In this document: positions 5,107-62,185 of the stretch, piece after piece
Numbering within the stretch: the stretch's first letter is position 1
How the letters are laid out: every line of letters starts with the position of its first letter
NCBI GenBank assembly: GCA_027625915.1
Contig: JANTQA010000047.1
Coordinates: forward strand, 18,042,001-18,106,000
Direction of reading: 5' to 3'
Source of the DNA: Anaeramoeba flamelloides
Lineage: Eukaryota; Metamonada; Anaeramoebidae
Length of the DNA stretch: 64,000 nt
Notes under the pieces: generated by a model
Seen by the model: only the letters and a program-made list of their open reading frames with translations
What the model was told of the DNA's origin: nothing
Database searches by the model: none
Made by a program: the position numbers and the translations under genes

Positions 5107-8100
5107 GTAAGAACATATTTTTTTTATTTTTCATTTCTTTTTCTTTTTCTTTTTCTTTTTTTTTTTTTTTTTTACCGATTTTTTTTCTTTTGTTTATTTT
5201 TCTTTTTAATTTACAAAAAAAAAAATACGATGACTGAATCTTCAAAACAAAAAAAAAACTTATCTTGGTTAAATCCCACAAAAAAAAATTAAAAACTTTT
5301 CTTTGATGAACAAAAAATTCTTCTTTTATTTGATAATGTTTGATGGAGTTGAATTTTGAAATTATATTTTGTTGATTTTCCAATTTATATACCAACAATT
5401 AACTTAAAACAAAACAACAACTAATTGGTATTGATTCAAAATTAAAATCGAATAAATCTTGAATTAATTCCTTTTTAAAATCCTTGATAACAAACAAAAA
5501 AAAAAATACTCTTATTTTCCAATTAAAAAATGAAAATTTTAGTTCATATTCCAAAATATTTTTTATATGAATTATAAGTTGAAAACCCCGAAATATTTAA
5601 ATAATCGTTTAGAAATGATATTTTTAGACAATTAATATAAACTACCTGTGTGAACTCGAAGACAAAATTTTTACTCTGCTAATTTGATTATAACAGTTCT
5701 AATGAATATTCATTTTAGAACTTGAAATAAAAAATTTCATTTATTAATTGGAAAATAACAGTACTAAAAAATCTTCTTTTTAAAAAAAATTAAGAGCTAC
5801 ACATCACCACTCACTAGTATGAAAAAATTAATTTGAAAAAAAAAAGTTAGACAAAACAACTACTTTCGTTATTAATAATTGAGTTTATTCAAAACATAAT
5901 AAGCAATATTTCAGAACTTAAAAATCTTGAGGCTATTGTATTTATTGGTATAAGTAGTAATACCTTTTTTAAAAGTCTCTAGTCGAGAAAAAAAGGTGTT
6001 TTTGGGGTAAAAATCAAATAAACGGAATGATGAATTTTAGTTTAATTCAACTTGGAGATATTTACTTTGGTAGATAATAACCAATAGTTTTGAAAATGCT
6101 GTACTCTTCTAATAAAACTGAACCAGAGAAAAAAAAATTCTGATCAATATTGCTGTGCACGTAGAGTGCCGTAGAGTGCCTAGGTTTTTTTTAATTTCTA
6201 AAATTAAAAAAAAACCTAACGGCGCTTTTCCAGAATTCAAAAGAATAGAGAAAAATCTTTGATTTTACCCAATTATTTTAAATTTTGGAAAAGCTAGGAG
6301 CAGTTTTTTTTAATTTTTGGAACAAACCGAAAATTTATCAAAATTTTTGATTTATTTCAAAAATTAAAAAAAAAACGAACGAAAGTGTCCGTAGAGTGCC
6401 TAGATTTTTTTTAATTTAAGAAATTAAAAGAAAATTTTTGAAATTTTCTTTTTATTTCTTAAATTAAAAAAAATCTAACGGCGGCTTTCCAAAATTCAAA
6501 AGAATTGAGTAAAATCAAAGATTTTACTTTATTCTTTTAAATTAAGAAAACCTAACGGAAAATCAAAAAAAAAATATTTTTTTCAATTTAAATGAGAAAA
6601 TAATTCATTCGTACTCAAAATAATTAATTCTACATTTGAAAGATATTTATCAGATTTAAAATACTTTTTAAAATATATGATTATAACGTCTTAGACTGTG
6701 AATAAAATTTTAATCAAATTTTTTGAATATTAAATTTGAAAAAAATATATTTATAGAACCTGAAAAATTGGATTTTCTCAAACTTAAATTGTAAAATATC
6801 TAGAAAAATAAAACTTGATCAAAGATCTTTCATTAACCAATAGTGTTTATTATACGTGAAGTTATTATAAAGTGAAAAATTAGCAAATGTTTAAATTTTT
6901 TTTCAAAAAATTTTTTACAGGATCATTTTGTTTCAAAAATTTATTTCTTATTTTTTTCCTGTTTTTTTTGTAAAAATTGTGTTTTTTTCATTGACTGTGA
7001 TACTTAGTAGGTGTGATTATAAGGTTCAAGAAACTTGACAAAATATTTGATGTTTAAAATGACAACAATTCATTCTATTAATCTATAGAAGATTATTGTG
7101 TATTTTTTTTTATTGATTTTAGAATATGTATTTTCGATTTTCTCTTGATCTTTCTATCTAAATCACTTCCTTTCCTTTTTAAATACAATAGAATGTTACT
7201 AAATACATCAAATATATGAACAAGTTTCTTTACCCTTGTAATCATACCAAAAAGTATCACAGTTAATGAAAAAATCACAATTTTTACAAAAAAAAATAGG
7301 AAAAAAATAAGAAATCATTTTTGCATATTTTTACCAGAATACAAGATATTCATTAATTTCATCTTTCTCTTTTGTGTTTATGGTATACTCTTTAGAAATT
7401 TAACTCTTTTTTTACAAGATTTTCTTCAATTTTGTGAAAAAAAGAGTTAACTTTCGAAAGAGTATACCTCAAATACAAAAGAGAAATATGAAATTAACCG
7501 TATGTAAAAAAAAAATCAACACGATTGTTAATCGGAAACCTTAAAAGAATCACAGAAACCTAAAAAAAACTGAAAACGAAAAGTATTAATAAAAGAAAAA
7601 ATGAATTACTAAAGACAAAATGGAGGACTCAACAGAATAACAGTTTTTTTTAATACTATCTTTTAGTCTGTGTTTTTATTTGATTGATCTATCATTAAAA
7701 ATTGTTGAAAAAATTGACGATTTTTGAGATCTCCAAAAACAACTTGTAACGGCTTTAATAAAAAAGGAGATTTAAATTGTATTTATTGATTCGTTTGAAA
7801 AAAAAATGAATTTTATCTTTGAAGTTAATTGGTTTCTTCTATTAATTCCTTTTAATTTTTGTTTTCAGTTTTTTTTAGGTTTCTGTGATTCTTTTAAGGT
7901 TTCCGATTAACAATCGTGTTGAACTTTTTTTTACCTGTTTCACTATTTTTTCCCAAATGTTCATGAATATCCTGGAGTTTAATAGTACAGTTATTTGAGG
8001 AAAGTGTAACAAAAAAGACTTCAAAAGTATCTGTAAAATAGTTTATAAACTTCAATATCCCTATTTTCAGAATACTATTCACAATAGCACGTATTTTGAA

Positions 8101-14100: not shown

Positions 14101-17100
14101 TCAAAATACTGTAAATTATGCAAAAAATCAAAAAAAATAGATATCATTGAAGATTTGGATCATTTTCTCTCGAAATGCCCAGCCTATGAAAATAATCGTA
14201 AAATCTGGATATCTGAATTAAAAAAATTTAACATCTCTAATATATTAAAAAATAATATTATTACTATTTTTGATATTATTAGAAAAAGAGATTCATCGTA
14301 TTTATTAGCCTTAGTGGGTAATAAATTTATTTTTGAGTCTTTAACAAAATTCCTAAATCATAATTTAGGAATTCGGGCAAATAAGAGGAATTAAAAACTC
14401 CTCCGTTAAATAATAAAAAAAAAAAAATCTACTATTTTTTATTGAATTAATTACAATGTAATTTTAAAAATAAATAAATAAATAGAAACTACACAAATGT
14501 AAGCATGATATCTCTATTTTTAGAGTTTTATAAAAATCATTTTTATAGTGATGTTTTATTTACACCCTAGTTAATATAATTATTAAATGGTAAAATAAAT
14601 TAATTGTTTTTCTATCGTATATATATACAAAATAATGATTGTTAAAAATGAAAAACAATCTTTTGTAAACATCTCATAAAGATAAGATTCTCTAATAACG
14701 ATCATTAAATTATTCGAGACAATGAAAAGTTGTGTTACAATTTTTTTGTGTTTCACTTTTTATCAGAACAGTTAAAAGACATTTAATCACACACTACGAA
14801 ACACCCATCAAAATTTTTCTTTATAGGATTGATTCTGAAGACAATATCCAAGAAAAGATTGCAACAATTTTCTTACTTGTATTTGAATTATTAATGGGAA
14901 ACAATATTCACTCCCTTTTTCAATATTGTTCTTTCAAATAGAGTTCCCAAAGATTTAAGTAGTTGGAGTTTTGGTTCTGCTTTAAAACGGAAATTGAAAT
15001 AGAAAAGGTAGGGTAGACATTTGCCAATACGAAGACTGTTAGGAAGTTCATACTTTATTATTTTTTTTTCATAACTAAACTTTTTTTCAACCAAAAGACC
15101 CAAAAAAAATTTCCAAAAACCAATTATTTTTTGAATCGAACCTTGAAGAACAAATAAGAAATAAGTAGAATAATCCACATTGGTGAATAGTTGATATCCG
15201 TAAGAAATAAAACTAATTAATCCATATATTTCCTTAAAAATTGAAAAACTAAAATTTCTTATCCTCACAATTAAAAAAAAAAGAAACAAAGTTCCTTTTT
15301 GAACCTCCAATTGAAGATCAAATAAAATTTCAATAAAAATCAATATGATTTCTCAACAATCATTTTTCACTATTTCAATAACCTTCAAATAACACTTTTT
15401 TATCAAGTTAATATAGATCTTGCAATAAAAAAAAAATTTTGCAACTGAATTTAGGTTTCAAATATAAAAGAAAAATTTTAAAATCAAAAAATGTGATTTC
15501 AATTTTGAAATTTTTCCTAAATAAATTTTTTCTTCTAATATCTATCCATCAAAACTTTTCAACACATGCATTTAAATTCATCCATTACAACTGGGCCTTT
15601 TGACTGGAAAATATTTTATTCAAAAATAAAAAAAATATGAAAATTATTTTTTTTAAAACTCTTCAATCATTTTAGACTTACAATCCCTGAAATTTGACCA
15701 ATTAATCATTTTTTTGATTTAGAATCTGTTTTGTTTTTTTGTTTGGTTAGAAATAATCATTTTATCAACTTGGAATTATTTATAATTTAAATACAGAACT
15801 GTCATTATTGTTTTGATTTGGAAAAAATCACCTCGTTATGATCTAAGTTTGAACTGGAAGAAAATTTTTGTTCTTTAATAAAATGATTCAGTTTTTGTTC
15901 TCTGAAAAGTATTTTATTACTAAATCAAGAATCATTTTAGATGCTCTTTGTTTTTATCAAAGATCTATTAATTGTTTTAATTATTTCTTGAAAATTAATA
16001 TTTTTTATCTTTTACTTTTTTGGTTTTTATATATTTTATCATTATTCTTCTATATATTTATCGATCAATATATATCTATCTCTCTATTAATATAAAATTT
16101 TCTAAATATTTATTATACTATAGGACAACTTAATACAAGAGTTAGCACATTATTTGCATACCCCACTAAATTAAATTTAACCCCTTTATCACCCCAACAA
16201 AGAACCAAAATTCATTGTGGCAGTTTTAATACCTTTGTTTATTCACCAATTGATGTGATTGAAGAAATGAATAAAAAACCTATAGACGATAAGCCAATTG
16301 AAGTTGAAGAATTGCAAATCAACAATGAAATTTTTGTTTATTCATGTGGGCAAAATGTGAATGGAGAACTTGCAATCGAAAAAAAAAATCAAAAATTAAA
16401 TCCAAATTTAATTCAATTACCCGCTTTTAGGAACAAAAAAATTCAATCGATCGCTTCTGGTTTTGAAAGATCAATAATTGTTGATATTGATGGGAAAATA
16501 ACTGGCTATGGAAATTTTTCAGATTTACAGTTCGATAAACCAGTGAAAAAAGCTGTTGCTGGGTTTTATCCTTGTGCTTTGGTTACTTTTGATGATCAAG
16601 TTTATTTTTCAGTTAAAGGAGAAAATCCTGTTCTTTTATCAAAGCCTCAAGGAACAACTGTTGTTGAGATTGTCCCTGGTTTATTCACTGTCTACATTTT
16701 ATATTCAAATGGAGATCTTTATGAAAAAGGCTCAAAAATTCATTCAAATGTCACAAGAGTATTTAGTGGCAATTATGCATCAAATTATTTCTTTATTGAT
16801 AATTCTGGAAGTTTATTTGCATCAGGAAAAAATGATAATGGACAATTAGGTATTGGGAAAGTTTGTAAAACTGTCACAAAAACAGAATTAACTGAATTTA
16901 GAAACCAACAAATAATTCATATTTCATGTGGTTATCAACATAGTTGTATGATTTTATCAGATAACAATGGAGTTGGAAAAGTCTATGGTGTTGGAAACAA
17001 TCAATATAGTGGACTTGGAGGATCTGGAAATACTTCAAAATTTCAATTAATTTCAACACTGGCCGATTTTAATGCAATGTTTATTGACATTGGATGCTTT

Positions 17101-28579: not shown

Positions 28580-29670
28580 AATTTTTTATTTTTGATACTT
28601 ATTACCTTTTCCAAATTTCCCTTCTTAAGTTGTTTGGGTTCCTTAGGTTCCGTAGGTTCATTCGGTTCCTTCTCTTTTTGTTTTTTTAGGTGTTTGGGAA
28701 AGGTAAAAGGAATAAAAAATCATTTTTTGAATTGGTTGACCTGGTCATGACTTACCCAACCAAACTTGTTCATGATCAAATCTTCGACGGGGACTTAAGC
28801 AACTGTATTTGAACTGAATCCAACGAATGTGATCTGAAATCGACCAAAGTGAACCGAATTGAACTTTTCGTACTATCTATCGAGTCGTTACTTGGACTGG
28901 GTTTTTGCTGTCGATTCGGTATCTTGTACTGGGATTTTTCAAAAACAAGCTTTGGGAAACTTGCACAAAAAAAAATAAATAAAAAAAGCAAAGCAACTGA
29001 AAAGAAAATTTCGAAAACCAAATCTTATTCTTCAACCCCAGAGCTTTATAGATTTAACTCATCTATAAAGTTCTAAATCAAAATTTAATTAAGCAGCCTA
29101 CAGTCGGATTCACTTTTAAGGCACAAACTTTCAACGAAATTTAAGGTACAAAAAAATCTCAAATTAAGGCACAAATTTTGGAATTTTTTTTCCCCAATTT
29201 ATTTTTACTTGTATTTGAGTTTTGTGCCTTAATTTGAGAATTTTTTTGTGCCTTAAATTTCGTTGAAAGTTTATGCCTTAAAAATGAAACTGAATGTATT
29301 TCATTTGATCTATAGTTGTTCAAATATTTAGAAATATTTATTAAAACAAATTATGGTGACGATCCAAAAAAATCGACATAAAAAGAAACAACCGCCAGCC
29401 CATTCAACACTTGGGGCACAAAAAAACTTTTCACTGAAGTTTTTTCTTTTTTCTATTATTTTTTGACTCTTACATTTCTTGCTTTTCTTTCTCTTTTTCT
29501 TGTCTTTGTTTAGAAATAATTTATTCTTTTCATTTTTTAAAGAAAAGATATCCTCTGAATTGTAATCCTACCTCCATTATTGTTAGGATAAAAAACCCTA
29601 AATACAATTTTAGAGTTTCAGGCAAATAGGAGGTAATTTTGTTGAATCACCTCTCTTAAACAATAAAAAA
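28580..29670 (+). mobile_element. LINE-mobilised element sharing the LINE 3' hairpin (copy 1)
   Basis: Bases about 28600-29090 and 29300-29660 match 41090-41800 and 42690-42860 (ACTTAAGCAACTG, TTACTTGGACTGGGTTTTTG, ATTCAACAC). It ends with GGCAAATAGGAGGT, a hairpin partner CACCTCTCTT and an A-rich tail. No modules lie before that tail. A CAGTCAG palindrome sits inside at 29099-29299. It lacks the reverse-transcriptase remnant present in the 41-43 kb copy. Confidence 0.7.
29099..29299. mobile_element. CAGTCAG palindromic MITE
   Basis: TACAGTCGGATTCACTTTTA at left and TAAAAATGAAACTGAATGTA at right, with inner arms AAGGCACAAACTTTCAACG / CGTTGAAAGTTTATGCCTT. About 200 bp, no ORF. Confidence 0.85.
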
Positions 29671-29874
29671 AAATTAAATTTTTGAAGTGAATATTTTTTG
29701 AATTTTAAAGCTCTTTTTTTGTGATCAATAAAAAATATTATTGTCGAAAATGAGTGATTAAATATTCAAAAAGTTGTTTGAATAACCAATCAACACAGTT
29801 GGAATTAACCTTAAATAATTTCAAAATTCATTCTTCTTTTCTTCTAATCTAATGAGGGATTTTTTTTCAAAAAT

Positions 29875-30272: not shown

Positions 30273-30441
30273 ATTTTATTTTTTTAGTATTTAAAGCGTT
30301 TAAAATTTTCAAAAGTTTTATATGCAAAACCGATTTTTGTTTTTTTTGCGTTTAAAAAATCGAAAATAAAACGCTTTCAACGAGTTTTAAACGAAAAACC
30401 TTTTAAACAAACGAAAAAAACGCGAATTTCCGTTGAATTTA

Positions 30442-31539: not shown

Positions 31540-32215
31540 TTGTTTTTTTTTTTCATTTTAAAGGGAGGAAAAATTTTCCTTGTACAGCCTTTAGGTTTTC
31601 CAGAATTTAAAAGAATAAAGTAAAATGTATTTTGATTTTACTCTTTTATTCTTTATCCTGGAAAACCTAGGCACCTGATGATTGGTTTTTTTTAAAATCA
31701 ATTAATCAACTAAAAATTTATTTAATTTTTGGTTTATTTCTTATATTAAAAAAAACCTAGGCATTTAGAGTTAGGTTTTCCAGAATTTAAAATAATTCTG
31801 GAAAATCTTTAGATTTTACTTGATTCTTATCAATTTTGTAAAACTGGCTTTGTTTTTCTTGATTTTTCTGTTTATTTGTAAAAACAATATATTTAGCGGA
31901 GAAAACAGAAAACTTCAAGAAAATAGTAGATAGGTTTTTTTAAAAAGGATTGAGAAATAAAAAGAAAATTTCAAACATTTTCTTTTAATTTAACAAATTA
32001 TAAAAAAACTTGGCACTTGAAAACACTTCTCTAATTTCTAAATTTTTATTTAGAAATTTCAATTAAGAATCATAAATTTTCTTTATCATTAACTAAACAT
32101 AATATACATAAGAAATCTTTGTATCGAATAATATCATTAATAGTATTCTTTTTATTAGATTTTCGTTTATTTGGATTTATTCTTTAATTGAAATTTAAGA
32201 TTTTTTTCATAGAAT
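31540..32215 (-). mobile_element. Reverse LINE 3' copy with palindromic modules
   Basis: Reading the minus strand: relic of the LINE ORF end (32050-32215), the short hairpin AATTTCTAAATTTTTATTTA, then about four palindromic modules (31595-31995; arms GGTTTTCCAGAATTTAAAAG, linker CCTAGGCACC). A degraded terminal hairpin and T-rich run (31540-31590) follow. Confidence 0.7.
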
Positions 32216-35616: not shown

Positions 35617-38600
35617 ATTTTTGTTATTATTATTTTTGTTATTATTATTGAAAAGTAATTAAAATTGTATAAATTTTAAAAATTGAAGAGAAACTTTTTG
35701 ATTTAAGTAATTATTTGAAAACAACAAAAGTAAAAATTGGTTTTTGTTTTATTTTTTTTTTTTGTTTTATTTTTTTTTAATTGGAATAAATGGTAGAAAT
35801 AATAAAAAATAGTTTGACTTTTTAAAATTTAATAAATTTAAACTTCTAATAATTTTTTTAAAATTAAGATCCAATCTAATAATTTATCAAAAAGTATTTC
35901 TGACAAAATTTACGTTTAAGGCAAATGGATTTTATTAAGAAAAAATAAAAGTCACTATTGTATTGTTCTTTAATTCAGATAGTTATTTATTTTGCATTTT
36001 TTTTTTTAATTGTTAATAAAATATTTTGAAATTAAGTTTTAATATTGTTTCTCAAAGTTTAATAAATATTGTTACTTCCAAAATAGGGACATTTTGAAGA
36101 AATAATAATTGACGGATAATTATTACCAGTTTATTCCCTAACAATACACAAACAAAAATAATTCATAGTATTCAATATTTGGTGTATTTTTTATTTAAAA
36201 TTAAATTTACAATTTTACATCTTTAATACTTCTTTTAACTGCAAATTAAAAAATATTTAATTTTGATTATATTTTTTTTTATTGTAATTGAAGGGAAGAA
36301 TTTTAGTTTCGATTATTTGTCGTTTGGTTTTTTTGAGTTTTCAAGAATTAAGTAAAATCTTTGATTTTTTCTTTTCATTATTAAAATTAAAATATACCTA
36401 GTTACTTGACGGCACTTCGTGTTAAGCTTTCCAGAATTCAAAAGAATAGAGAAAATCTTTGATTTTATTTTTTTTATTTTATTTTTTAACGGAGGAGTTG
36501 TTAATCCCTCTTATTTGCCGTTAGGTTTTTTTTAATTTGAGAAATAAAAAGAAAATTATTGAAATTTTCGGTTTATTTCTCAAATTAAAAAAAACACCGT
36601 TATCTTTTCCAGAATTTAAAAGAATGGAGAAAAATCAAAGATTTTATTCAATTCTTTTGAATTCTAGAAAAGCTAGGCACTCTACGGCACTCACCGAATT
36701 CCTAAATTTTTATTTAGAAATTTCTATAAATACTCAAAAATTCGTCTATTATCCACTAGTGTTAATAAATATATTGATGAGTCTTTTTTTATAATAATAT
36801 TAAAAATATTATTATTTTTTTATATATTAGATATATTAATTTTTTTTAATTCAGATATCCAAATTTTACGATTATTTTCATAGGCTGGGCATTTCGAGAG
36901 AAAATATTTGATTTTACTCAATTCTTTTGAATTCTGAAAACTCAAAAAAACCTCCGTTAGCTTTTCCAATCTTTAAAAGAATCAAGTAAAATCTTTGATT
37001 TTTTCTTTTCATCATTTAAATAAAATATACCTAGTTACTCTACGGACACTCGACATTCGGTTTTCCAGAATTCAGGAGAATGGAGTAAAGTTATCTTAGA
37101 TTTTATTCAATTCTTTTGAATTCTGGAAAATGTATACACTATAAGCCACTTATCTGCACTTCCCTAATTCCTAAACTTATATTTAGATATTTTTTAAAAG
37201 ATACAACTTTAGTTTTATTATTCACCATAGCTAATAAGGACATTGAATATTGTGTATTAATAATATTCATAACTGTCTTTATTGTTTTGATTAGGAAACA
37301 CTCACTTTGTTATGTTACGAGTTTGGCCTGGAAGAACGAGAAATATGATATTGTTCGAAGTGATATAAGTTGGTATTGAGGAGTTCGAAGAACGAAGATT
37401 AATATTAATATCCTTTTAGCACCAGAACATTATCATATTTTGATTCTGGAAGGGTATCCAAAACGAAGAATTCTAAATGGTGGTTTTTGAGAAAATGAAA
37501 CAATATGGGATGATATTTATTTTTTCGAATTCAGGATCTAACTCGGCACAACAAGACAATAAAAAAACAAACAAATTTAAACAAGTAACAACTAATTTGT
37601 TATTTTTCAATGGTACTTTGAAGAACTTTTTCTTCAAAGGATCTTGTTCTCTCAATGGAGTTATCGAAAATATTGAAGTTAAATTTTACATTTTCTCCGT
37701 TTGATACAAAACTTGGTTTAAAATCCCACAGAGACAAACCAGATCGCCCAACTTTTCAATAAGTCTCTATCTCCCCTTTTATTTCACGCTTGTTAAGAAA
37801 CATCCGAAGGCGATCAAATATAAAACCCCGCATGTATCTCTTGGTGTTCTTAACAGTAACTGATTTTGAGCATTCCTCTAAAAATTCCTTGACTTAGTTG
37901 TAGTAAAAAAAAAATTGTTTAATTTTTTTCTTAAATTTGTAATCGTGTTTTTTTCTCATTTTGAAATTCTTATATAAATGTTTTCTTCTCTCTTTTTTCT
38001 TCCAAAAAAGAGACCAAATGTTTTTTATTTTTTTAAAAATGATATTGATTTCAATCGAGCCAAAACCAAAAATCATGTTTGGTTTTTGGTATTGTTTTTT
38101 AAACAAAGAAAGGGAATTCATTCAATTTCCAACCTTTAAGGAATAAATTGAAGGACTTTTTTCTTTGTTGTATATTGATCAAATAATTGGGTTACTTGAA
38201 CCAAATTAATTTTCCAATGTCAGAAATCCTTGAGTGCGGCGAGCTTTTGGGATTATATGAGATTAAAAAAACTCGCAAAAAAATTGGTTAAACTCTTCTA
38301 AAATAACTTTAAATAACATTTTTAAAGTCAAATTTTATTGGGAAAATATTTCTTATTTTACCCAAATAGAATTCAAAATTAGAAGATCAGAAAATTTTCA
38401 AACTTTTCCTAATAACCTAATGTATTTCCCAAAATCTTTCCACAGTGACTAAGGTTCTATCCTAAACTTTACAGTGTTCTAATCCTTTTTCTTATCGGTG
38501 TTATCAAGAATTATGTACTTTAAATTTTTACAAATAAAAAATTTGAGTTTTTAAAAAAAAAATACATAGCAATATTATTTTTTTTTTATTTCTTTTTTTA

Positions 38601-41600
38601 TAAAAGGAAGAAAGTTGATCAATTCATAAAAATTTAAAATTTTTTAATTTTTGAATTAAACTTAAATTTTCTTTTGTATATTGAGATTCTTCCTGGTTCA
38701 AAGTTTGTCCCAGTTCTATAAATATGCCTTGGAGGTTGTGTGTAGACTGAAAAGGGTTTTAGTTGATTCTGCAAAAGTGCTTAAAGGAATTGAACTTTTC
38801 ATCGCAAGATATCTCGTCACTTAGTGAAAACTTGTTATTTTTGTGTTATTGAAAGTGTGGAAATGATGATTGTAGGAAAATCATTTTGATTTATATTGGA
38901 ATTTTATTTTGATCTTCAATTGAAGATCAAAACGAATGTTTTTGCGAGAATGAGACTGATTCAAAATCTGCATCTTCTTGTGAAAGTGATCAATTTTTTT
39001 TTTCAAGGATCCAAAACTTTTATGTATCCATTTTAATAAAATCTTCTTAAACTTTAAAAAAAAAATTAAAATTAACTTTATTTTGAGAATAAACAAGTAT
39101 TTTCCTCTGAGCTGTAATCTTGCCTACATTATAGTTAGGATAAAAAACTCTAAATATAATTTTAGAGTTTCAGGGAGTGCCTAGCTTTTCCATAGACTTT
39201 ATGTTTTTGTTTCGAAAATCTATTGATTTTCTAATCAAAACAAAAATTAAAAAAAACCTAACGTGAAGTGCCGTAGAGTGCCTAGCTTTTCCAGAATTCA
39301 AAAGAATATAGAAAAATCATAGATTTTGCTCAATTCTTTTAAATTTTGGAAAAGCTAACCGCGGTTTTTTTTACTTTGAGAAATAAACCGAAAATTACTA
39401 AATTTTCTGTTTATTTCTCAAAGCAAAAAAAACCTAACGGCAAACAGAAGGTAATTTTGTTGAATCGCCTCTCTTCAATAATAAAAAAAAAAAAGAATAA
39501 ACAAGTATTTTTCGTTGAAAATTGTATTTCGAATATCATGAAAAACCGAAAATTTGTCACTATTAAAACGCTTATCAGGAAATCATTTTAATTACAATTT
39601 CAAACCAAAAATGTTCAAGTTTGCAATAATCTCAAAGTTAAATATTTTTCAGATTCACTTATTTACTAATTTCAAATTAGTAGAACAAATGATTAAATGA
39701 TAAGGTTATTTAGAAATTGGTTGATCTAGCGTATATAATATATAATTTAGCATTTTAAAAAGAGAATTTAGAAATAAATTAAAACAGTTTGAATAAATTA
39801 CACAATCAAAATAATTAATGAAAGAGAAAAAAAAAAGGAAAAAAAATAAAAAAACAATTACTGTTTCTCAAGATCATTAATTTGCTTTACTTGACATAAT
39901 TTTAATTTCAAGCTTTCAATTTTCCTGGTATTGTTTTGTGCATTAATAAAATAAATTCTATTATTTTTAATTGAAAAAAATTTCTTTTCCCAAATTTTCT
40001 CTCCAGTTTCAGATTTTTTAAGTAAAGAACCCTTTTTTTCAAATATTTTTGGTTTGTTTTGTTGTGGCTGTTGTTTTTGTTGTTTTTGTTCTATGAATTT
40101 TTTTTTTTTTTGATTTTTTTCTTCCAGGATCAATAAAAGTTTTTGTTTTTTCTGATTATCCTCTTTTATTTCCTCTTCAAAATTTGCCTTTACCCCTTCT
40201 AATTCTATTACAAGATCTCTCATTTGTTCTTCAATTTCTATAAGTGAATCATATCCAGTATGAAAGAATGTTAATTGCGAATACATAATTGCAGCGAGTC
40301 TTTCAACCATATCAAATTTCTTTTTCGCTTGAATCTTGTGTAAATTACTAGCCAATTCAAAATTTGAAATTAAATATTGTTTTTCAACTTCATCAAGTTT
40401 GGAAATTAATTCTTGGTCATTCTTTTTTTCTTGTAATTTCTTTCTTAACAAATCTCGTTCATCAGCTAAATCATCTAATTTATTTCTTGCTTGTTTAACT
40501 GAGCCAATATCATTTTTAATAAACTCCTCTACGGGTTGAACAAGTAAATTTTCAATTTGAGTAAACTGAGTATATGTGGATATATAAATAGAAATATTAC
40601 ATTATATTGAAATTATTATTATTATTATTTATGGGTGTTATTATATGTTAAGCAATGTATTGAGTATTTTTTTGTTATAATTTTAAACTTAGCAAGCATC
40701 TTGATCAGAATTATTCAAAAAATAACAAATATTCTATATATATATATATATATTTATTAGAAGAATAACCATGGTATTGGTACCCTATTTAATCAGTTTT
40801 TGTAATCTGTTGTGTGTAATTTTATTTTTTTCCTTTCTGATCTATGGAACTTCCTTCAATTAACACATAAAAAAAAATTTTGGTTTCTTCAATAATTAAA
40901 ACCATTAACCACTCGATCTACTGAGGGTTTCTACTTGAATTAATTGGTTAAATGTAATTTGCAAAATAGATCACTAAATAATTGTCATTTTTAAAAAAGT
41001 GTGACAAATACGTTTTTTTGAAAGAATGCAAAAAAAAAAGGATAAATTTATTTCAAGTAAGATCTTAAAATAATTTTTTTTGATTTTTTTTATACTTTTT
41101 ACCTTTTCCCAATTTCCATTTTTAAGTTTTTTTGGGTCCCTTTGGTCCCTTCTTAGGTTCCTTAGGTTCCTTAGGTTATTCCTCTTTTTGTTTTTTTAGG
41201 TGTTTGGGAGAGGTAATATTCAGAAAAAATCATTCTAAGCATTAGTAGACTTGGTCATGATTATCTAACCAAACTTGTTCATGATCAGATCTAAATAGAA
41301 TCAAATTGGATCTTAAACTAACTTGATCAGATCTAAAACGAATTGATATGGACTTAAGCAACTGAAGAGAACTTAATCCAACGAATGCGATCTGAAACCA
41401 ACCAAAGTGAACCGAATTGAACTTTCCGTACAATCTGTCAAGTCGTTACTTGGACTGGGTTTTTGCTTTCGAGTCGGTATCATCGTACTGGTATTTTGTG
41501 AAAACAGGATTTGGGAAACTTTCAAGAAAAAAAAAATAAAGCAACTTAAAAGAAAATTTCTAAAACCAATTCTTATTTTTAAAAACTCAGCACTTTATAT

Positions 41601-44600
41601 ATATAAAACCCATCTATAAAGTTCTAAATTAAAACTTAATAAAACAACCTATTTCATTTGATCTTTAGTTGTAGAAATATTTAGATCTCTTTATTAAAAC
41701 AAATTATTGTGGCGATCCAAAAAAAATCCAACATAAAAGGAAACAACCACCAACCCATTCAACACTAGGGGTGCAAAAAAACTTTTCAATGAATTTTTTA
41801 ATTTATTATTATTTTTTTTTACTCTCTTTAATTTGGATCACCTATCAAAAGACCTTAAAATGGACGAAATTGAAGGTATAGACTGGAAAAATATGGACGA
41901 GAAAAAACTGAAAAAATTTTCCAAGAAGTCCACATAAAGACTATGAAAGATAAAGTCGATTCGTCGGTTGGAGAAGAAAACTGGAAATTGAAAAAATACC
42001 TCAAAATTGCCCAATTTCCAGAAAAATTCGCAATAAAACAACCATATTTGAACTGGAAATCATCAAAAACTCTACTTAAGCTCGAATCTTTATCAAATGG
42101 CTTATGTAGATACACATACAAGTATGAACGGGGAATAAAAAACAAAATATGCCCCTACTGCAAAAAAAAAGTTGATGATGTAGACCACCTCATATGGAAA
42201 GGGCGAAAAATATGAAAAAAACAGAAAATACTGGAAAAATGAACTCAGAAAAGTCAAAGATTTTGACTTTAGTATCATTACCAGAGAGGATACTGATCAG
42301 TTGTTCAGAAAAATGAATACAAAAGAAATGTACTACATCACAATAGAATATTTTCTGACTAATATGACCCAGCACACTATAAGAAAAAATGAATGAAAAT
42401 CTAAGTCTAAATAGCAAGTCATTCAACTCACCAGAAACATATATTCTCTCAATACTACTACTATTTTTATATCTTAATTTTTTTTTTTTCCACTTTTCAT
42501 TTTTTATTCTTCATTTTTTATTCTTTTTTTTTCTTATTTTTTTCAGAAAAATAAATTGAGTTTAAAATACTTCTAATAACTGTAATTAAAAAGTTCTTTT
42601 GACTACTCTTTGGATTAGGAGTCACAAATTTAGTCAGTTCAAAACTCTCTCTTTAACAGATTAAGATCTCTTGAGCACTTAACCCTTTCCAATAAAGCCT
42701 ACTACTCTCTTTCAGTTTTTACTTTTCTTTCTCTTTTTCTTGTTTTTGTTTAGAAATAAAAAAAATTTTCTTTTCAGTTTTTAAAGAAAAGATATCCTAT
42801 AAGTTATAATCTCGCCTACATTATAACCAGGATAAAAAACTCTATATAAATTTTGAGAGTTTTAGAGAGTGCTGTCAAGTACCATGAAGTGCCGTCAAGT
42901 GCCGTCAGTTACCTGGTTTTTTTTTTTTAATTTACGAAATAAAACGAAAATTAAATAAATTTTCGTTTTATTTCATAAATTAAAAAAAAAACTAAAGAAA
43001 AGTGCCGTAGAGAGGTAAAGGTCATGAATTTTTAGCATTTATTGAAATTTCTAAACAAAAATTTAGAAATTAGGAAGTGCCGTCAAGTGCCTAGCTTTTC
43101 TTGAGTTTTTTGTTTATTTGGAAAATCAATAGATTTTCGTTAGGTTTTTTTGAGTTTTCTATTTATTTAGAAAATCAATAGATTTTCTGAATAAAATAGA
43201 AAACCTCAAAAAAACCTAGAACACTTAACTAATAAAACAGAAAACCTCAAGAAAAGCTAACGGAGGTTTTCCAAAATTCAAAAAAATGGAGAAAAATCTT
43301 TGATTTTACTCAATTCTTTTAAATTCTAGAAAATTTAACGGCTAATAAGGGGATAATTTTGTTGAATCACTCCTCTTCAATAATAATAATAAAAAAAAAA
43401 TAATAATAATAATTTTTTTTTGTATCACCTTTTAAAAACAACTTTATCTGATCATTGTATTAAACTAAAAAAATGTTTTGAATAATGATATTTTAAATTC
43501 CAAATCATACCCACTTTAATTAACCCTTGAAAAAGAAAATTAAGAGAAAAGTCTGGAAAAAAAAAAAAAAAAAAAATAGATTTTACTATTAAAAATATTA
43601 TTTTTGAATGGATTGGTGTGATACCGAGATTTAAAACAAATGCACAAAACGCCAATACGGCACCCAATATAATCTCTGATTTCAATATTTCTTTTATTTT
43701 TAAAAAGTCAGTAAAAAAAAAGTAATGAAAAAATTATTAATTTGTTTTCTATTGATTTCGATTTTTGTTAAATCATTACATTTTCATTTTTTAATATTTT
43801 TTAGGCTATTTGTGATTGTTTGATTCATAAATTTTGGAAAAGTTGATTTGTTTTCAAAATTTTCCTTTTTATCACACCAGAGTAAATATGGAATGTTGTA
43901 AAAAAATAGAGTTTTTACAATTTTGGAGATAAATAAAGATTTCCATGAATTTATCCAAATTTTGGTAATAGTAAATATAATGTCTGATTATCTTAATAGA
44001 CTGATAATAATTTTATGTAAAAAATCGTTTGGAAATTACCAATCTTTCATTTTTTCAAAAAAAATCATTTTTTCAAACAATTTATTGGTATTTACTAAAC
44101 GATTTTATATTTAAAAACCATTTGATCCCAAAAATCAAAATGAGCAGAATCGTTTATTATTACCTAAATTTGAGTAAATTCATGGAACTCTTTATTTGTC
44201 TCTGAAAATTGTAAAAACTCTATTTTTTACAACATTCCTTATTTACACTTTTGCAACAATAACTATTTTTCAATTATTAAAAGTGTAATTTTGAAAACAC
44301 TCTCAACTTTTTGAAAATTGGAAACCAGACTACCACTACAAAGATGAGGTCAGAACAATTAAAATTTAAGAAGTGCAAAATAAAATAAAAAGTTGTTGGA
44401 GAACCAATGAGTAGAATTCATTGTTTTTTTCCTTTGTTTTTTTTTCCTGACTTTTTAAAGCCAAACCAAACATTAAAATCAGAGATTACCTTGGGGGTGG
44501 TATTGATGTTTTGTGTATTTGTTTTAAATATCGGTCTCAAACAGATCCATTAAAAGACCTAAAAAAAGAAGATAAAAATGATCTGCTTTTTTGTGGTGCT

Positions 44601-45800: not shown

Positions 45801-46431
45801 CCACTCTTAGTTCCCCAATGGAAAAATATCACTAAAAATTCAATTTGTCATCTAGTAATATTAGTTGATCTCACCAAGTCAACTTTTTCCATTGTATTTT
45901 GAAAAAATTCAGGAATTTCGAAAAAAATTTAAATATTGAGAAAAATATGAAAGTTGAAGAATCAACAATCTTAATAATTCAATTTTTCAAAATATCTTTC
46001 TTGATTTAGGTTTCTCAGTGTCTTAAATATTTACTTAAAAATAAATAATTAACCTCGAGATTTCTCTCATTAAATCATAGGTAATTTTTACAAATTATTT
46101 TTACAGATTATAAATGTATTGAAAGTAGAACTACTCTGTTGAAGGAGAAAATAATCAATTTTAGGTATATATGTTGACAATTTTAAGATAATTTTGTATT
46201 TAAAAAATCACAAAACTTACTTTCGATTTTATTGAAACAAATATTTTCAAACAAAAGAATCTGGATGACAATATTGTTGATGGGAGATCTTGCCTATTTG
46301 AAAAATTATTACCAATATTTCAAAAAAATCTTGGGTACTTGACTAAAATAAATTTTTAATAATAAGATTAAAAATAGTCTTTTCGAAATTATTTTGAAAT
46401 ATTTTATATTGTTACTTGACTTTAATTCCTA

Positions 46432-46805
46432 CACAAGAGTAAATATGAAATTTGTAAAAAATATAGTTTTTAGAATTTTCGAGATAAATAAAGAATTCCT
46501 AGTAATTACCTACAATTTGGTTAGAGTAAATATATTACCTGATTATGTTAATAGATTAATAAGTTAAATCAAAAAATCATTTAGTAAATACCAATCTTTC
46601 AATTTAAAAAAAAAAATCATTTTTTCAACAATTTATTGGTATTTACTAAACGATTTTAGAGTTAAAAACCATTTGATCCCAAAAATAAAAATGTGATTTC
46701 TCCTTTATTATTACCTAAATTTTGGGTAATTGCATGGAAATCTTTATTTATCTCCAAAATTGTAAAAACTCTATTTTTTACCAACATTCCATATTTGCTC
46801 TTGTG
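46432..46805. mobile_element. Foldback MITE, family FB2, copy 2 (TA duplication)
   Basis: Ends CACAAGAGTAAATATG and CATATTTGCTCTTGTG are nearly exact complements, flanked by TA on both sides (46430-46431, 46806-46807). 374 bp, no ORF. Confidence 0.85.
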
Positions 46806-47010
46806 TAATGATAAAGAAAAACATCAAGAAATATACAAGAATTTTTTTAAACAAAACAAACTAAAATAGTTTATAATAATTTTAATTTTTGAGTTATTTG
46901 CAACTAATTCTACCTCATTTTCTTATAAATCTAAGAGTTATATTTCTCTTTTCCAATTTCAAAATTAGTAATTAGCAAATTTAAATATTTTTTTCAGCAA
47001 TTATATATAT

Positions 47011-48305: not shown

Positions 48306-51064
48306 CCGTCAAATCTAAAACCCGGAAATTTCTGAAACCCGGTAATTCCATTTTTCTGATCAATTGAAAATATTAGTAAAAAGTCAAAAATATACTCCCA
48401 TTTTACAGACAAATAACACAATTACCCAGTAACTTATAACCATTCCAATTGGGGTGTTGGTTAAATATTCTGAATTCACCATTTTTAACTCTTTGGTGAA
48501 TTCAGAAATCAAAAAAATCCAAAATTTGTAAAATTAATTGAGAACATTACTGAAAATTGAAAATCAAATTTATTGCTATTTTCCCTTTAGATAAATTCTA
48601 AATTTATTTTGAATCATCTTTATAAGAATTATTTTGTTATTGCATTTATGAAATAAGAGTTTTATTTACTTTATATCTTTCTTTTAATAATTTTTTCAAA
48701 ATTTTAAATTTCTATTGTGAACCTTAGAGGATTTATTTTTTTACAAAATGGTTTTCATAATTTCATGAAAATTTATAATAATCAAACACCTTTCTCAAAT
48801 TCAAATGCTTTCAAATATTTTAAAAGTATAAAAATGTTTTTTATTTCAAAATTTAAAATCAAAAGTGGATTTTCATTTTCAGTCATGTTCTCAATTAATT
48901 TTACAAATTTTGGATTTTTTTGATTTCTGAATTCACCAAAGAGTTAAAAATGGTGAATTCAGAATATTTAACCAATACCCCAATTGGAATGGTTATAAGT
49001 TACTGGGTTATTGGGTTATTTGTCTGTAAAATGGGAGTATATGAGTGCTTCTTAAATTTTCTAAAAAAACCCGAAAAAAAAATTTACCTGAAAAAAATTT
49101 TTTAAATCAAAATTCACCAAATTCAATTATTTTGCAAGGGTTGTATAATTTCAAAGTGTTTTTTTAATTTTTTGATATAATTGGCCTTTTTACAACTTAA
49201 TTACTCATTTTTTTTATATTTTTTTTTCAATAAAAGTAACTTTCAAAACTATTGGTTTATTTTTTCATTTTTTGAAATTATGTGTTAACGATCAAATGAA
49301 AATGTAAAATTTAATCACCAAAAAGTTAGATCATTTATGTAAGTCGACTTAGACAAATATATTTTTTGAAAAATCTAGAAAAACCTGACTAATTGCTCCA
49401 CGTATAATTTCCATTAGATCTTTGAATAAAAATTCCACAAAAACTTACTCAAACAACACTCCTCACAATTTGTATTGAACCTAACAATTGTGTTTTGAGA
49501 GAAAACCCCACTAAGAAAAAAAAAAAACTAATGAACATTTTTTGGGTATTTGATTTAGGATTTTCTGTTCATAAATCAAATAGAGCAAATTCTAACCTGA
49601 GTAAAGTCTTCTTTGATAACTTCAATTCAAGAAAAAACAAAAAACAAAAAAAAAACAAAAAGTGAAAAACTAATAGAAAATCAGAATTTCTTTGTTAGGA
49701 GTTTATTATTTCTGAAGACAATGTAATAATTTAAGTAATCCAAAGGCCTATAACCATAGGACATTTGGTCTTCGAAGTTTTAGTTTATTATTGATACAGT
49801 TTGAAATGATCTTCATTTTTTAGGTTAGGAAATATTGTTCATTTTTCAAGTTAATGGTATTTAAATCATAAAACAAGAAAAAAAATCACTTCATTTTCTT
49901 GTTTTTCTTTCACAAATAGAGTTATCAAAAAATAAGTTGAGGTTTGAAAGGTATTTGAATAAATCAAATGGGAAATGAAAATAAAGTAAAATTTTTTTCC
50001 TATTTGTCAAACAAATTTGGTGTTTTCTCTTTTTTCATAAAAATCTTCTCTTTTCTAAAGTTGCTAATTTTTGAAAGTAGTCAAAGAAGAAAGGTGGTTC
50101 AACAAAGTCCATGAAAACTTCTCTAGAATTATTGTTGTGATAAAAACTACTTTTTTTTGGAAACTTGTAAAAAATATTGAAAGTTTTTTTTTCAAAGAAT
50201 GATTGGGATTGGGAAATTGTTTAGTGTACTCTGGGGTTTGTATTTACCTTGGAATTGTAATAAGTTGATTAAATTTTTAATTGTGAATGAAAGATCTAAA
50301 ATCAAAAAAATTGTTCGGATTAAAATCTATTAACAAGAATAAAGAAATTGAAATTGTAAAAGTGAGTAAAATTTTCCCTATACTTTTTATAGTAAATGGT
50401 TTTACATAATCAATTCTGAAAGTTTTGTTTTCTGGGCATTCAAGTTAAATGAAAAAAAAAAACTTAATGAAATTTACCAATACTAAAGTCAAAAATAGCA
50501 AATTAATCGGAAAACAGGGATGTTTTTGTTATTTTCTTTTGAACAGGGATTTTTTAAGTAAACTTTTTTCTTTTTTTAATACCATCCAAAAAATAATCCA
50601 ATAAAAGTCAAAAGTAAAAAACAAATACCTTTTTAGGTTATTTGATCAATTCACCAAAACAAAAATCTTCCCTTAGTCTGGAAAAACATTTAAAACTTTT
50701 AAAAAACTCTAAAGAACAAAATACCATTACCTTTTCCAAACAATACCAAAATAAAAACTTTCTAATTTATTAAGGAATAAGAGGACTTTAAAATAATGCC
50801 ATTTCTTTCCATATAAATTCTCCATTTTTCCAAAAAAATGCAATTGAAAATAAAAAACGAAATTCAAGTTCCTTTAAGTTGAGACAAAAAAAAACAACCC
50901 CAACAATTATAAACTACTCAAAATAACATGTTAAAAACTTTCGGGTAAATTTTTTTTTCGGGTTTTTTTAGAAAAAAATTATTAACTTACCGAGTATATT
51001 TTTAACTTTTTACTAATATTTTCAATTGATCAGAAAAATGGAATTACCGTGTTTTAGATTTGAC
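48306..51064. mobile_element. Long-arm inverted-repeat element (family H, copy 2), split by another element
   Basis: Ends CCGTCAAATCTAAAAC and GTTTTAGATTTGACAG are complementary; TTA lies just outside both, a possible 3-bp duplication. Arms of about 230 bases (TTTCTGATCAATTGAAAATA; TGGTGAATTCAGAAATCAAA). The left tip has a small tandem duplication (AAACCCGG repeated). The right arm is broken at GAGTATAT by the 1949-bp insert 49043-50991. Confidence 0.8.
49043..50991. mobile_element. hAT-like non-autonomous element with exact 8-bp target duplication
   Basis: GAGTATAT occurs at 49035-49042 and 50992-50999, and removing the insert plus one copy restores the host arm seen in reverse at 48390-48420. 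Inverted termini share CTAAAAAAACCCGAAAAAAA and then AATTTACC. An 8-bp duplication is characteristic of the hAT superfamily; no transposase ORF is present. Confidence 0.87.
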
Positions 51065-53421: not shown

Positions 53422-56400
53422 CTGAGAATAATTAGATTATATAAATATTATAAGTGTTAACATTAGAAAAGATCATGAGTAAAAATATATTAATAATAAA
53501 TCAATAAAGAAATTAATCAATAACATTTCACTGTTATATTTTTGACACAATTTCATTCATTTATTTATTTATTAAAATGGTTGAATATTTATGAAAATAT
53601 TAAAAAATATTGGGAATCTCTAACCAGATTCCCATATATATTTTTATTATCCAGTTGGAATATTAAAGATATCTAAAATATAATTATAATATTATTTTTT
53701 AATATATTAGAAATATTTAATTTATTTTTAATTCAGATATCAAGATTTTAAGATTATTTTCATAGGATGGATAATTCCATAGAAAAAAAAGTATTTTGTT
53801 TTTTATTCATTTTTAAGAAAAATTTTAATGTGTTTTATATTAAAATAAATCCAATGGGTGTTGATTCAGTCGGTATTAATATTTAATTTAATTTGATATT
53901 GCCAACTTATGAATAATAACCACTAACAAAGCAATTTTTATGAAAATTTAAAAAAATGTACGCACTTTTTTGGAAATACCTTTTAATTATTGATTAAATT
54001 TTTAAAAAATTAGTAATAATTTTTTTTTTCCACTCGTTTAATTATTTTGGAAACAGAAATTTTTTTCTTTTCGTTTTATATTTGTTTCTTTCTTTTGTAT
54101 AAAAATGGTTATAGATAAAAACATTAATATAGTGTACTTAAATTTAGTTTAATATTATATTTTAAAGAATACAAAAAATTGAGATTTTTTTTGTAGGTTT
54201 TTGATTTTTGGTGTTTCAAAATTTTTGGAATATGGTTTATATTAAATTTATTAAAACAATAAGTAAAGATACAATCATTTATTTTATTTTTTTTTTTTTA
54301 AGAATAAAAACTTACATGATTCATCAAAATATTGTTTATGATGAAATTTAATGCTTCTTAAGAATGGTATCACTTGTTTTTCACTTAACCAATATCCATT
54401 TCCAGCATCGTGAGTAAAAATTATTTGATCGAATGTACTTAAATCAAAAACATTTTTGCAATTTGATAAATCTTGTTGTTCTTCTTCCTCTTCTTCCTTC
54501 TTTTCATTTTCCTCTTCTTCTTGCTCTTCTTGAATATTTGGTGTAATTCTCATGAAAAAACCTTTATTAACAATTGTACACATGGAAAGTTGCTTTTTAC
54601 TTAATTTTTTTTCAATAGTCAAAAATTTTGTACGATCGTGATTTCTTTTCAATTAATATTGTGTTTTTTTATATTTTAATAATAAATAACTATAATTTCA
54701 TTTTCTTATTATTTTATTTTATTTTTTTGAAATTGCTGTAGATCAAATTTAAGTTCAAATAAATAGATAATATTTTGATTTTATATTTATTTTTGGTGGT
54801 TAAGAACCTCACAAAATATTTATTTATTTATTTATTTTAAGGTTAGTTACTTATTTTATTTTTTTTTTTTTTTTCATATTGATAAATTGAAGATATAGTA
54901 AAATAAATGTTAGTTCAATTTCCTTTTTATAAATCTGTTAACTCAACTTTCTAAACCTTTCTTTATTAGGGACATTACAAAAATCAAGTAAAATACAATT
55001 TCCTTTCCATTTAAACCAATAAAATGTTTTATTCGTCTTAATTTAATTCTGAGCAAAAAAGTTTAAAAAAATTGAAATTGATTTCAAATATTTAATTTTT
55101 TTTTCGAATTAAACAGTAAAAATGATTATAGAAATAAATAAATATAAATATAATTATATATATATATATGAACTCCATTTCACTCAAAGGCTGGCAGCCA
55201 AAAAGGAAAATTTTCACTTTTTTTAAGAATATACCAAACCATTGTTTAGAAATAAGAGAAATAAAAAATTTCAAATTAGAGTCAATTAATCATAAAAGTA
55301 AAGCCTGAACAAACCATAAATTTCAAAAAAAAAAACAATGTTAAAAAAATTTTTGGGCCACTTTCATTGGAATATCTTATAAAAAATTTCTCAATTTTTT
55401 TTTATTATTATTTAACGGAGGAGTTTTTAATTCCTCTTATTTGCCGTTAGGTTTTTTTTAATTTAAGAAATAAACCAAAAATTTTTAAAAAAAAATTGGT
55501 TTATTTCTTAAATTAAAAAAAACCTAGGCACTTCCCGAATTCCTAAATTGTGATTTTAAAAATTTCTCAATTTCTTTAGGAATATTAAAATTGTTGACAA
55601 TAAGATTTTTTACTTGTAAATATTGACATTTTAAAAGAAAAAACAACATTTCACTTTTCTGTATGTTAATTTGGAGTTTTCAAACATTTTTTTCTTCGAA
55701 TTGACTTTTTAAAAAAAAGTACAAAAAAAAAAGAAAAGAAAAAAACAACAAAAATCAATAAATAAAAAAAATAATTGACAAAATGAGAAAAAATGATTTT
55801 GATCTAAAAATTGGAAATTTATTTTGAGAAGAATAATGAATAAAACTCATATCATATGTTCTATTTCTTCAATAAAACTGGGCCCCTTTGACTGAAAAAG
55901 ATTTTATAATATATATTTCCAAAAAAGCTGGGTTGACTTTATTTTAAAATATATTTATTAAACTCAGTCATCATAAAACTATTTAAATATACAAAATCAT
56001 TAACTATCATGTATTGATTCTTGATAATAATTCAATTTGTTTGTTAGTATGATATTACACAAATAAAATATATTAAATTTTTTGATCTCAATTTTGTCTG
56101 ATATTTTTTAGGGTATGATAATTGGTATTTATTGTTTTCTTTTTGATCGAAAACATCATTTTCCATAACTTCTTTAATCTGGACAAATTTTCCAATAAAA
56201 TGGAAAACCATGTTAACCGTATTTTATTGTTTAAAAAATCCTTTTTTACCTAATCCACATTTCCAGTTTTTTATTCAAATTGGCTGTAACTTTATTTTTG
56301 ATATAAACAGTGTTATTTTTTTTTTACATTTTTTATTAATATTTCAACCAACATATTTTAAAATAAATACCTTAGTCATTTATTCAATTTGTATTTATAT

Positions 56401-61344: not shown

Positions 61345-62185
61345 TTTTTTTTTTTTTTCGAAAGAGAGAAATTAATTTCCACTGTCAAAAGTTAGGTTTT
61401 TTTACTTTGAAAGAATTGAGTAAAATCTTTAATTTTTATTCTTATTTCTTTAAAATTCTTGAAACCAGCCATTAGGTTTTTTTTTTTTTTTACATTTTAT
61501 GTTTATTTGAAAAATCAATAGGTTTTACAAAACAGAAAACCTCAAAAAAAAAAACACCATTAGCTTTTCCAGAATTAAAACAAATTAAGTAAAATCCAAG
61601 GTTTTATTGAATTCTTTTGGATTCTGAAAAAAAAAACCGCCGCTAGGTTTTCTTGAGTTTTCTGTTTATTTGTAAAATCAATAGATTTTAGTTAGGTTTT
61701 TTTGAGGTTTTCTATTTTATTTCTAAAGTAAAAAAAACCTAACGAAAATCTATTGATTTTCCAAATAAATAGAAAACTCAAAAAAACCTAGAATACTTAA
61801 TAAATAAAGTAGAAAACCTCAAGAAGACCTAGGCACTCTACAGCACTTTCCGTTAGGTTTTTTTTTAATTTAAGAAATAAAAAGAAAATTTCAAAAATTT
61901 TTGGTTTATTTCAAAAATTAAAAAAAAATCTAGGCACTCTACATCACTCTAGGTCACTCGAAAACACTCAACGGCAATCGATGGAACTTTCATAATTTCT
62001 AAATTTTTGGTTTCGAAATTTTAACTAACAAATCATAATTTACATTATCATTTGCCAATGACAAAATGAATAATGATTCTTGAATTTGAATAAGATCAGA
62101 GGTATTATTCCTTCTTGTTTTTTATCATTATTTGGATTAAATCTTTAATGCAAATTGTTCTATTTTTTCCATGGGATGTACCGTT
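61345..62185 (-). mobile_element. Reverse LINE copy with long module array
   Basis: T-rich tail (about 61348-61360), degraded terminal hairpin, then about six modules to 61990: b-type at 61395-61465 and 61560-61630, c-type at 61500-61545 and 61650-61820, a-type at 61690-61735 and 61855-61930. Then linkers (CTACATCACTCTAGGTCACT), the short hairpin near 62000 and an ORF-end relic to 62185. Confidence 0.75.

Follow-up and report, generated by a model that had tools for sequence, protein, structure and literature searches.

A LINE 3′ end at 61.4–62.0 kb in a 64,000-nucleotide stretch of Anaeramoeba flamelloides DNA (hereafter, the window) carries a long array of palindromic hairpins, and raises the question of what such hairpins are, where else they lie and how they come to differ between copies. 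A sequence-only reading of the window had placed them at one fixed position in LINE 3′ ends and had offered three explanations: hairpin gain by template switching during reverse transcription, a parasite with LINE 3′ ends as its only insertion site, or a structured RNA platform for the reverse transcriptase. We followed the hairpins through the genome (254 Mb in 76 contigs) with motif searches that allowed up to 2 mismatches and used reversed patterns as controls; the genome-wide counts given here are lower bounds. The sample consists of 124 loci (L-numbers) from this one genome, mostly well-preserved copies, and the assignment of loci to slots was made partly by eye. Automated hairpin extraction was set aside as too loose (493 calls vs 175 in reversed sequence). 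The GC content of the window is 20–26% in 4-kb steps.

The LINE copies share one order. Stem-loop 1 comes first and may be followed by an array of palindromic hairpins, which are of three types (A, B, and C); stem-loop 2 and the A-rich tail then close the element. We refer to the site between the two terminal stem-loops as slot T. The features of the window that bear on it, with the basis of each assignment, are as follows.

61391..61990, minus strand: hairpin array made up of A, C with a nested insert, B, C-like and B-like modules, with decamer linkers (GAGTGNNNTA) at its left end (sequence reading; RNA fold).
61345..61390, minus strand: LINE terminal stem-loop 2 region and A-rich tail (comparison with other terminal motifs).
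About 61994..62020, minus strand: LINE stem-loop 1, the last structure before slot T (sequence reading).
14162..14437, plus strand: LINE 3′ end with empty slot T, GG^G at 14376/14377, and two RNA stems (sequence, RNA fold).
29551..29672, plus strand: second LINE family, empty slot T at about 29621/29622 (sequence).
31590..32030, minus strand: third LINE family, filled slot T (sequence).
36519..36693, minus strand: filled slot T (B, A); the LINE sits in a hairpin loop of an older array, with target duplication TAAAATCAAA.. (sequence).
36335..36470, minus strand: right part of the array split by the 36.5-kb LINE, limits approximate; the left part lies at about 36977–37150 (sequence).
39174..39439, plus strand: second LINE family, filled slot T (sequence).
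42866..43340, plus strand: chimera of family 2 stem-loop 1, array, family 3 stem-loop 1, array, and family 2 stem-loop 2 (by eye).
55445..55534, minus strand: filled slot T with a single A-type hairpin, in a unit of ~133 bp cut at stem-loop 1 (sequence).
6153..6557, plus strand: array in the centre of repeat X, which spans about 5812–6938 (sequence, BLAST).

The constant order of ORF end or 3′ UTR, modules, terminal hairpin and tail that the sequence-only reading had described fits, by eye, all nine places it named, two of them empty (14.376 and 29.62 kb) and the others filled (31.6–32.0, 36.3/37.1, split by a later LINE, 36.5, 39.2–39.4, 42.9–43.3, 55.4–55.5, and 61.4–62.0 kb). The junction strings it quoted are correct, and the three types of hairpin it distinguished do exist.

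The carrier of slot T is a LINE (non-LTR retrotransposon), as seen from its reverse transcriptase (RVT_1, E 1.4e-22, in L004), RNA-binding ORF1 (RRM_1, E 4.9e-10, in L024), target duplications and A-rich tails; these domain matches came from two of five pieces searched, and another of the five, taken as the endonuclease start, gave no domain match. In the copy at 14.376 kb, the empty slot reads ..AATTCCTAAATcataATTTAGGAATTCGG^GCAAATAAGAGGAATTAAAAACTCCTCC.., the RNA forms a stem on each side of the slot (z −3.55), and the ORF reads through the slot to end in GIRANKRN*. In filled copies, a stop codon is supplied by the insert after a few codons if the decamer CCGTAG is present (by reading), and the linker closes the ORF in many of them. 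The insert starts with (T)GAAGTG or AAGTG and ends with CTAACG, and 0–2 nt (GG) are duplicated, as judged by reading, with no statistical fit; its right end is constant, while decamers stand in varying number at its left end. Genome-wide, the terminal motif has at least 895 matches (13 for the reversed pattern), and with one tail type there are at least 753 empty and at least 621 filled T junctions (0 reversed for either), where the filled pattern spans more than one LINE subfamily because the tail GCAAATAAGAGG is common to several. Among the first 28 exact terminal motifs listed, which were unselected for fill (L001–L028), 16 are empty and 12 filled, and the right end, hence the orientation, is identical in all 12 filled copies.

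Arrays move within the retrotransposed LINE unit. Target duplications enclose the array, with a match of at least 14 to the locus's own partner in 19 of 50 loci vs 6 of 150 mismatched pairings when the upstream search was limited to 1 kb, and 11 of the 32 filled loci reach this value. A wider search, run without a control, gave 42 rows, some of them spurious by eye. The 5′ ends of the units cluster near slot O, a site within the LINE ORF (CTGGAACTGCCC; L002, L003, L014, L018, L025, L055, L057, L068, and L074, for example), and the LINE copies that start there may represent either a defined short derivative or a reverse-transcription stop point. Other 5′ ends lie at stem-loop 1 (L011, L060, and W55, the 55.4-kb unit), so that units of 130–520 bp exist that contain only stem-loop 1, array, stem-loop 2, and tail. 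With their target duplications, which for L011 and L060 are also present in the controlled set, such units answer the description of a SINE as a short, trans-mobilised element whose 3′ tail is common with that of a LINE. As to the head that a SINE would also have (RNA polymerase III promoter, or tRNA, 7SL or 5S), an Rfam scan of the window gave 0 matches at the gathering threshold.

Arrays travel with the LINE, and their content changes independently of both LINE flanks, while the flanks agree with each other. In 30 filled loci of the first LINE group (L066, a remnant, and L045 and L056, in which no right boundary was found, were left out), distances in the ORF and in stem-loop 2 are strongly correlated (Spearman 0.71, 0/2000 permutations as high), and array distances follow neither the ORF (−0.05, 1324/2000) nor stem-loop 2 (−0.04, 1243/2000). 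Ten of these rows had been fetched by a common module; in the other 20, the ORF still tracks stem-loop 2 (0.557, 3/2000), with values of −0.07 by k-mers (1426/2000) and 0.12 by local alignment (330/2000) for ORF against array, and of 0.164 (222/2000) for stem-loop 2 against array. In the pair L069 and L070, the ORF is 18.9% different and stem-loop 2 21.4%, and all 86 nt of the array are identical; by an arithmetic estimate, the chance of an unchanged array at equal rates is about 1e-8. Because stem-loop 2, which lies beyond the array, tracks the ORF and not the array, a swap of the whole 3′ end is not the main route of exchange. Template switching, as proposed from the sequence, is compatible with the data in a modified form, as a possible way of copying cassettes between slots.

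Arrays are also found beyond LINE 3′ ends, and at more than the single position first proposed. The linker GTGCCGTAGAGTGCCTAG has at least 4,531 matches in the genome, vs 0 for the reversed pattern, and 0 exact matches among viral, bacterial and archaeal contigs (viral_contigs, genome_contigs). The first 20 exact matches listed, all on one contig, were read regardless of context by sequence and BLAST (L039 was assigned by BLAST). Slot T of several LINE families accounts for 11 (L029, L031, L033, L035, L037, L038, L040, L042, L043, L045, and L048), the centre of a different repeat, X, for 5 (L032, L034, L039, L041, and L044), and slot O of a LINE for 1 (L046); 1 is a rearranged array between LINE slot M and an inverted LINE slot T (L036), and 2 are unplaced (L030 and L047). 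The X array at 6153–6557 had been overlooked in the sequence-only reading, which had also held that modules lying at random positions, or unlinked to LINE 3′ ends, would count against it: other positions do exist, but they are fixed ones and not random.

Slot M lies mid-ORF in LINEs, where the empty form reads AACAAACA^ACAAAGATA and the filled form ..CAGTCGTGTC..CTAACGA.., with about 1 nt duplicated at the junction (by reading). It is filled, by eye, in three LINE families (L078/L080/L082; L084/L115; L012/L015/L019), and the filled form has at least 244 genome matches vs 0 reversed. The empty form of the first LINE subfamily has 257 matches vs 3 reversed, a count that includes a 2-mismatch form (..AACAGCAAAAATA), which may stem from other sequences. 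Slot O, CTCTG^GAACTGCCC, lies in the zinc-knuckle region of the LINE ORF (L012, L059, L046, and L110). Inserts also nest inside C-type hairpins, at TTTATTTG^GAAAATC, and a further carrier is indicated by L113, L114, and L124, which share the left flank ..TTTTTAATTATTGTAAAATATTTTTG.. directly before the linkers.

Repeat X comprises about 740 bp plus the central array, with ends CACTAGCATGAAAAA and TTTTTCATGATCGTG and terminal inverted repeats; it may resemble CACTA elements. Its right junction has at least 551 genome matches at up to 3 mismatches, vs 0 reversed. Twenty-one X copies could be compared, 5 of 26 loci having been dropped for missing flanks. Their left and right flanks agree (0.70, 0/2000), and the array follows the left flank at 0.37 by k-mers (8/2000) and 0.19 by local alignment (218/2000), and the right flank at 0.07 (613/2000). 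X arrays therefore retain some vertical signal.

Two other sequences were seen in the neighbourhood of arrays. A spacer of ~100 nt (GACAGCGGAATACCAATTATTAATCACAG..) recurs beside them in L030, L061, and L085, and an insert of ~480 bp, with ends CAGTGATCAAAAT and ATTTTGACTACAGTA, lies inside an A-type hairpin at 650–1127 of L029 and resembles a small DNA transposon.

Individual modules are shared across LINE lineages, slots and carriers. An 83-nt B-type module, B*, occurs in 37 places within 3 mismatches, 10 within 2, and 5 exactly, and all 37 were read; the 10 within 2 mismatches, together with L076 (3 mismatches), all lie at LINE slot T. Ten of these 11 loci were placed in a tree built from 212 upstream columns with 50 rows; L060 is absent because it is cut at stem-loop 1 and retains too little upstream LINE. 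On this tree B* requires 9 changes, at least 4 of them forced by starred branches (mean for label shuffles, 9.3), and a single clade for B* carriers is rejected (p-AU 4.7e-63), although weak inner branches (10/46 starred) leave it uncertain how many transfers took place in the youngest subfamily. In L111, the B* core lies inside a different array, with its closing pair and right end changed, so that the tie between B* and slot T is not absolute. Nine places hold identical copies of a second 83-nt module. Three are in slot M of one LINE family (L078, L080, and L082), one is in slot T of a LINE from the first subfamily (L123), one lies within an array (L116), and four stand next to other left flanks (L079, L112, L113, and L117); L079 has its left flank in common with the LINE end L042. 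A third is identical in L077, L081, L084, and L085, and again, by eye, in L115 and L124.

The same holds between LINEs and X. For 83 B-type modules (53 from LINE slot T, 30 from X), the nearest neighbour lies in the same carrier in 44 cases, against a permuted mean of 44.8 (1213/2000 as high); since nearest neighbours ignore the carrier, the LINE and X module pools are not separate. The test covers B-type modules, and A-type modules were left out (12 poorly anchored rows). One module is identical over 63/63 nt between L029 (LINE) and L041 (X). Arrays may themselves be chimeric, as at 42866–43340 and in L036. The sequence-only reading had entertained a parasite specific to LINE 3′ ends; in that form it is refuted by the modules that also fill other slots and a non-LINE repeat.

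The hairpins are strongly structured, and their pairing is uneven. The array RNA at 61391–61990 folds with z = −8.9 (20 shuffles) and that of the 55.4-kb unit with z −6.95 (200 shuffles). Closing pairs of B-type modules are coupled (40/67 complementary, 0/5000 shuffles as high), and those of A-type modules show no significant coupling (36/45, mean 33.4, 402/5000). The outer arms of A-type modules match above permutation (20/55 vs 8.7), also after removal of duplicates and module-selected loci (12/37 vs 5.6). Exact matches of the inner 10-mers are not in excess (7 vs 6.9 permuted); their mean mismatch count is below that of permuted ones (1.53 vs 2.04), a difference that fades to 1.65 vs 1.81 after the same removal (254/2000 as low). 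The description of the modules as near-perfect hairpins therefore applies to their outer part and does not extend to the A-type inner arms. We make no claim of selection for pairing, because two or three old subtypes would yield the same coupling. An RNA platform for the reverse transcriptase is unsupported, given the many empty copies (16/28 in the unselected set, and the excess of listed empty over filled junctions), an array content that does not follow LINE lineage, and the presence of arrays in X.

We favour a reading, to which we give a probability of roughly 45%, in which existing slots receive copies of cassettes from a common pool, guided by homology at the conserved junctions, through template switching or ectopic repair. 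The pool consists of short palindromic cassettes of three hairpin types, about 60–100 nt long, with (GTGCCGTAGA)n..TAG before and CTAACG(GCG) after, and these fill a few fixed, recurrent slots in repeats (T, M, O, the X centre, and the C-type hairpin loop). Slot-to-slot copying would rely on homology and proceed by template switching or by ectopic repair of breaks, with the short conserved junctions and the hairpin arms as landing points; the copying agent may be reverse transcriptase, break repair or both, and part of the exchange should occur at the DNA level because identical modules are common to LINEs and X. LINE retrotransposition would then multiply whichever array version a copy holds, and new slots would arise from rare insertions without clear target duplication. 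Hairpins can stall polymerases and attract breaks, and would in this way promote their own exchange. Such copying accounts for the recurrent positions, the intact flanks, the common linkers and the chimeric arrays. Against it stand the vertical signal kept by X arrays and the fact that no intermediate, enzyme or transcript was seen. The sharing between LINEs and X could also be due in part to a retained old consensus module.

The data largely fit site-directed insertion of single modules as well, in view of L111 and of the other modules found in several slots, and this is the main rival, possible enough to be taken seriously. It holds that a non-autonomous mobile element, a cassette running from AGTGCC.. 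to CCTAAC^G, is inserted site-specifically by a putative enzyme, mostly between two G and with a 0–2 nt duplication. The right end CTAACG is indeed common to slots T, M, O, X, and the C-loop; precise empty sites exist, with empty forms seen for four slots, of which three are G^G (T, O, and the C-loop) and M is A^A; one 86-nt array, sharply delimited on either side, occupies the same slot in different LINE lineages; and a module recurs unchanged in nine places that have flanks of several kinds. Yet B*, with 11 copies at slot T and one near relative in an array (L111), keeps to its position more closely than would be expected under free insertion, no autonomous copy stood out among the loci read, and a search for Y1_Tnp gave 0 matches in this genome (the control matched in 5/14 genomes). 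Helitron_like_N also gave 0 matches, a result that carries no information because its control was equally silent. That reverse transcriptase alone is responsible, the LINE enzyme jumping between co-expressed LINE RNAs at hairpins with nothing happening at the DNA level, we regard as improbable. Arrays do lie within retrotransposed units, several copies are 5′-truncated at stem-loop 1, the chimera at 42.9–43.3 kb joins family 2 and family 3, and double template jumps by a LINE have been described in Magnaporthe (PMC2104539); however, X, with its terminal inverted repeats, uses the same pool of B modules, X arrays track X flanks more weakly than the flanks track each other, and islands need two switches near the array edges, given that the flanks of L070 and L069 already differ at about 15 nt to the left and 13 nt to the right. 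Least probable by far is that the arrays are ancestral and selected as RNA structure, their differences reflecting divergence, slippage and deletion. Strong RNA folding, the coupling of the B-type closing pair and the A-type outer arms, and deletions that fit slippage between repeats (L031, L066) are in its favour, but as the sole explanation it is contradicted by arrays that track neither ORF nor stem-loop 2, and it sits poorly with identical modules in LINEs 19% apart, an A-type closing pair that is not significantly coupled, inner arms that are weakly coupled if at all, and common empty copies. A bolder reading, in which slot-bound palindromic cassettes form a new class of selfish DNA, using different repeat classes as vehicles and spreading by dedicated copying or insertion at short junctions, seems doubtful to us; such units would somewhat resemble gene cassettes, here with no coding partner nearby.

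Several known kinds of element were considered. MITEs, foldback elements and Galileo combine a palindromic or inverted-repeat structure with high copy number and modular ends, and the inverted repeats are present in the modules here. As an identity for single modules this was rejected on the duplications of 0–2 nt at T and about 1 nt at M and on the recurrent slots in the loci read, none of which showed a single module inserted with a clear target duplication. The sequence-only reading had named an ordinary MITE target duplication on each module as a finding that would refute it, and by reading of slot T, with its 0–2 nt, this is not what is seen. REP/REPIN hairpins, which Y1 transposases move, and HUH rolling-circle elements are alike in forming arrays, in a hairpin whose flank is conserved and in the lack of a clear target duplication; the Y1 transposase search had no match in this genome, and the Helitron search is uninformative. 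Spliceosomal introns and introners came into question because some left ends read GTGAGT, and were rejected since the insert ends in CTAACG and not AG; at slot O, a cut to the next AG deletes the zinc-knuckle Cys of the empty ORF (HFLWNCPAYENN in L004; by reading). We also weighed a possible likeness to the core sites of integron attC (GTTAGG/CCTAAC), and dropped it as a short degenerate match.

In the open-access literature, screened by title and the start of the abstract, we found no paper that combines recurrent slots, alternative hairpins and in-place exchange; three partial likenesses are described. The V domain of SINEs is common with the DNA transposon MER6 (PMC6887750), and is alike in being a short segment common to retroelements and a DNA transposon; in that account it is one conserved domain, whereas here alternative palindromes stand in arrays, with content varying within a slot. 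An element carrying a conserved domain (HCD) was rejected as an identity for the same kind of reason: the sharing is seen, but hairpins of alternative kinds fill the slot, and their number and order vary. Mobile double-hairpin elements and palindromic repeats of fungal mitochondria (PMC7218506, citing Paquin 2000) are likewise short, palindromic, optional, inferred to be mobile, and non-coding, while the modules described here lie on megabase contigs, in repeat-internal slots, in arrays with conserved linkers, and are amplified by LINEs. The Magnaporthe elements MGL, Mg-SINE, and WEIRD involve chimeric retroelements generated by LINE template switching (PMC2104539); as here, chimeras with target duplications are made by a LINE, and double jumps are proposed, but different transcripts are fused there, whereas here an internal island varies and both flanks stay.

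These observations point to a layer of mobility below that of the transposon, in which sub-elements of ~60–100 nt vary inside a LINE family, leave the flanks undisturbed, and are common to LINEs and an unrelated repeat. If template switching is the route, the genome would hold a natural record of very many events with marked ends, from which one could measure where jumps occur, how donors are chosen and how often this happens; should an enzyme stand behind the cassettes, they would constitute a new kind of mobile unit. For annotation, array sequence common to LINE 3′ ends and X should not be taken to reflect the ancestry of the carrier.

The window contains other repeats as well. A family of palindromic repeats of about 200 nt (TTTAAGGCACAAACTTTCAACGAAATTTAAGGCACA..), distinct from these modules, is present at 27700–30650 in several tandem or nested copies, and long inverted-repeat elements lie at 43603–44555, 48390–49042, and 6936–7322. 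Related pairs are formed by 43874–44262 with 46431–46814 and by 2312–2972 with 48341–48989. Open frames between 4278 and 18627 resemble, by eye, RCC1-type repeats, with blocks that are 90–97% identical between copies.
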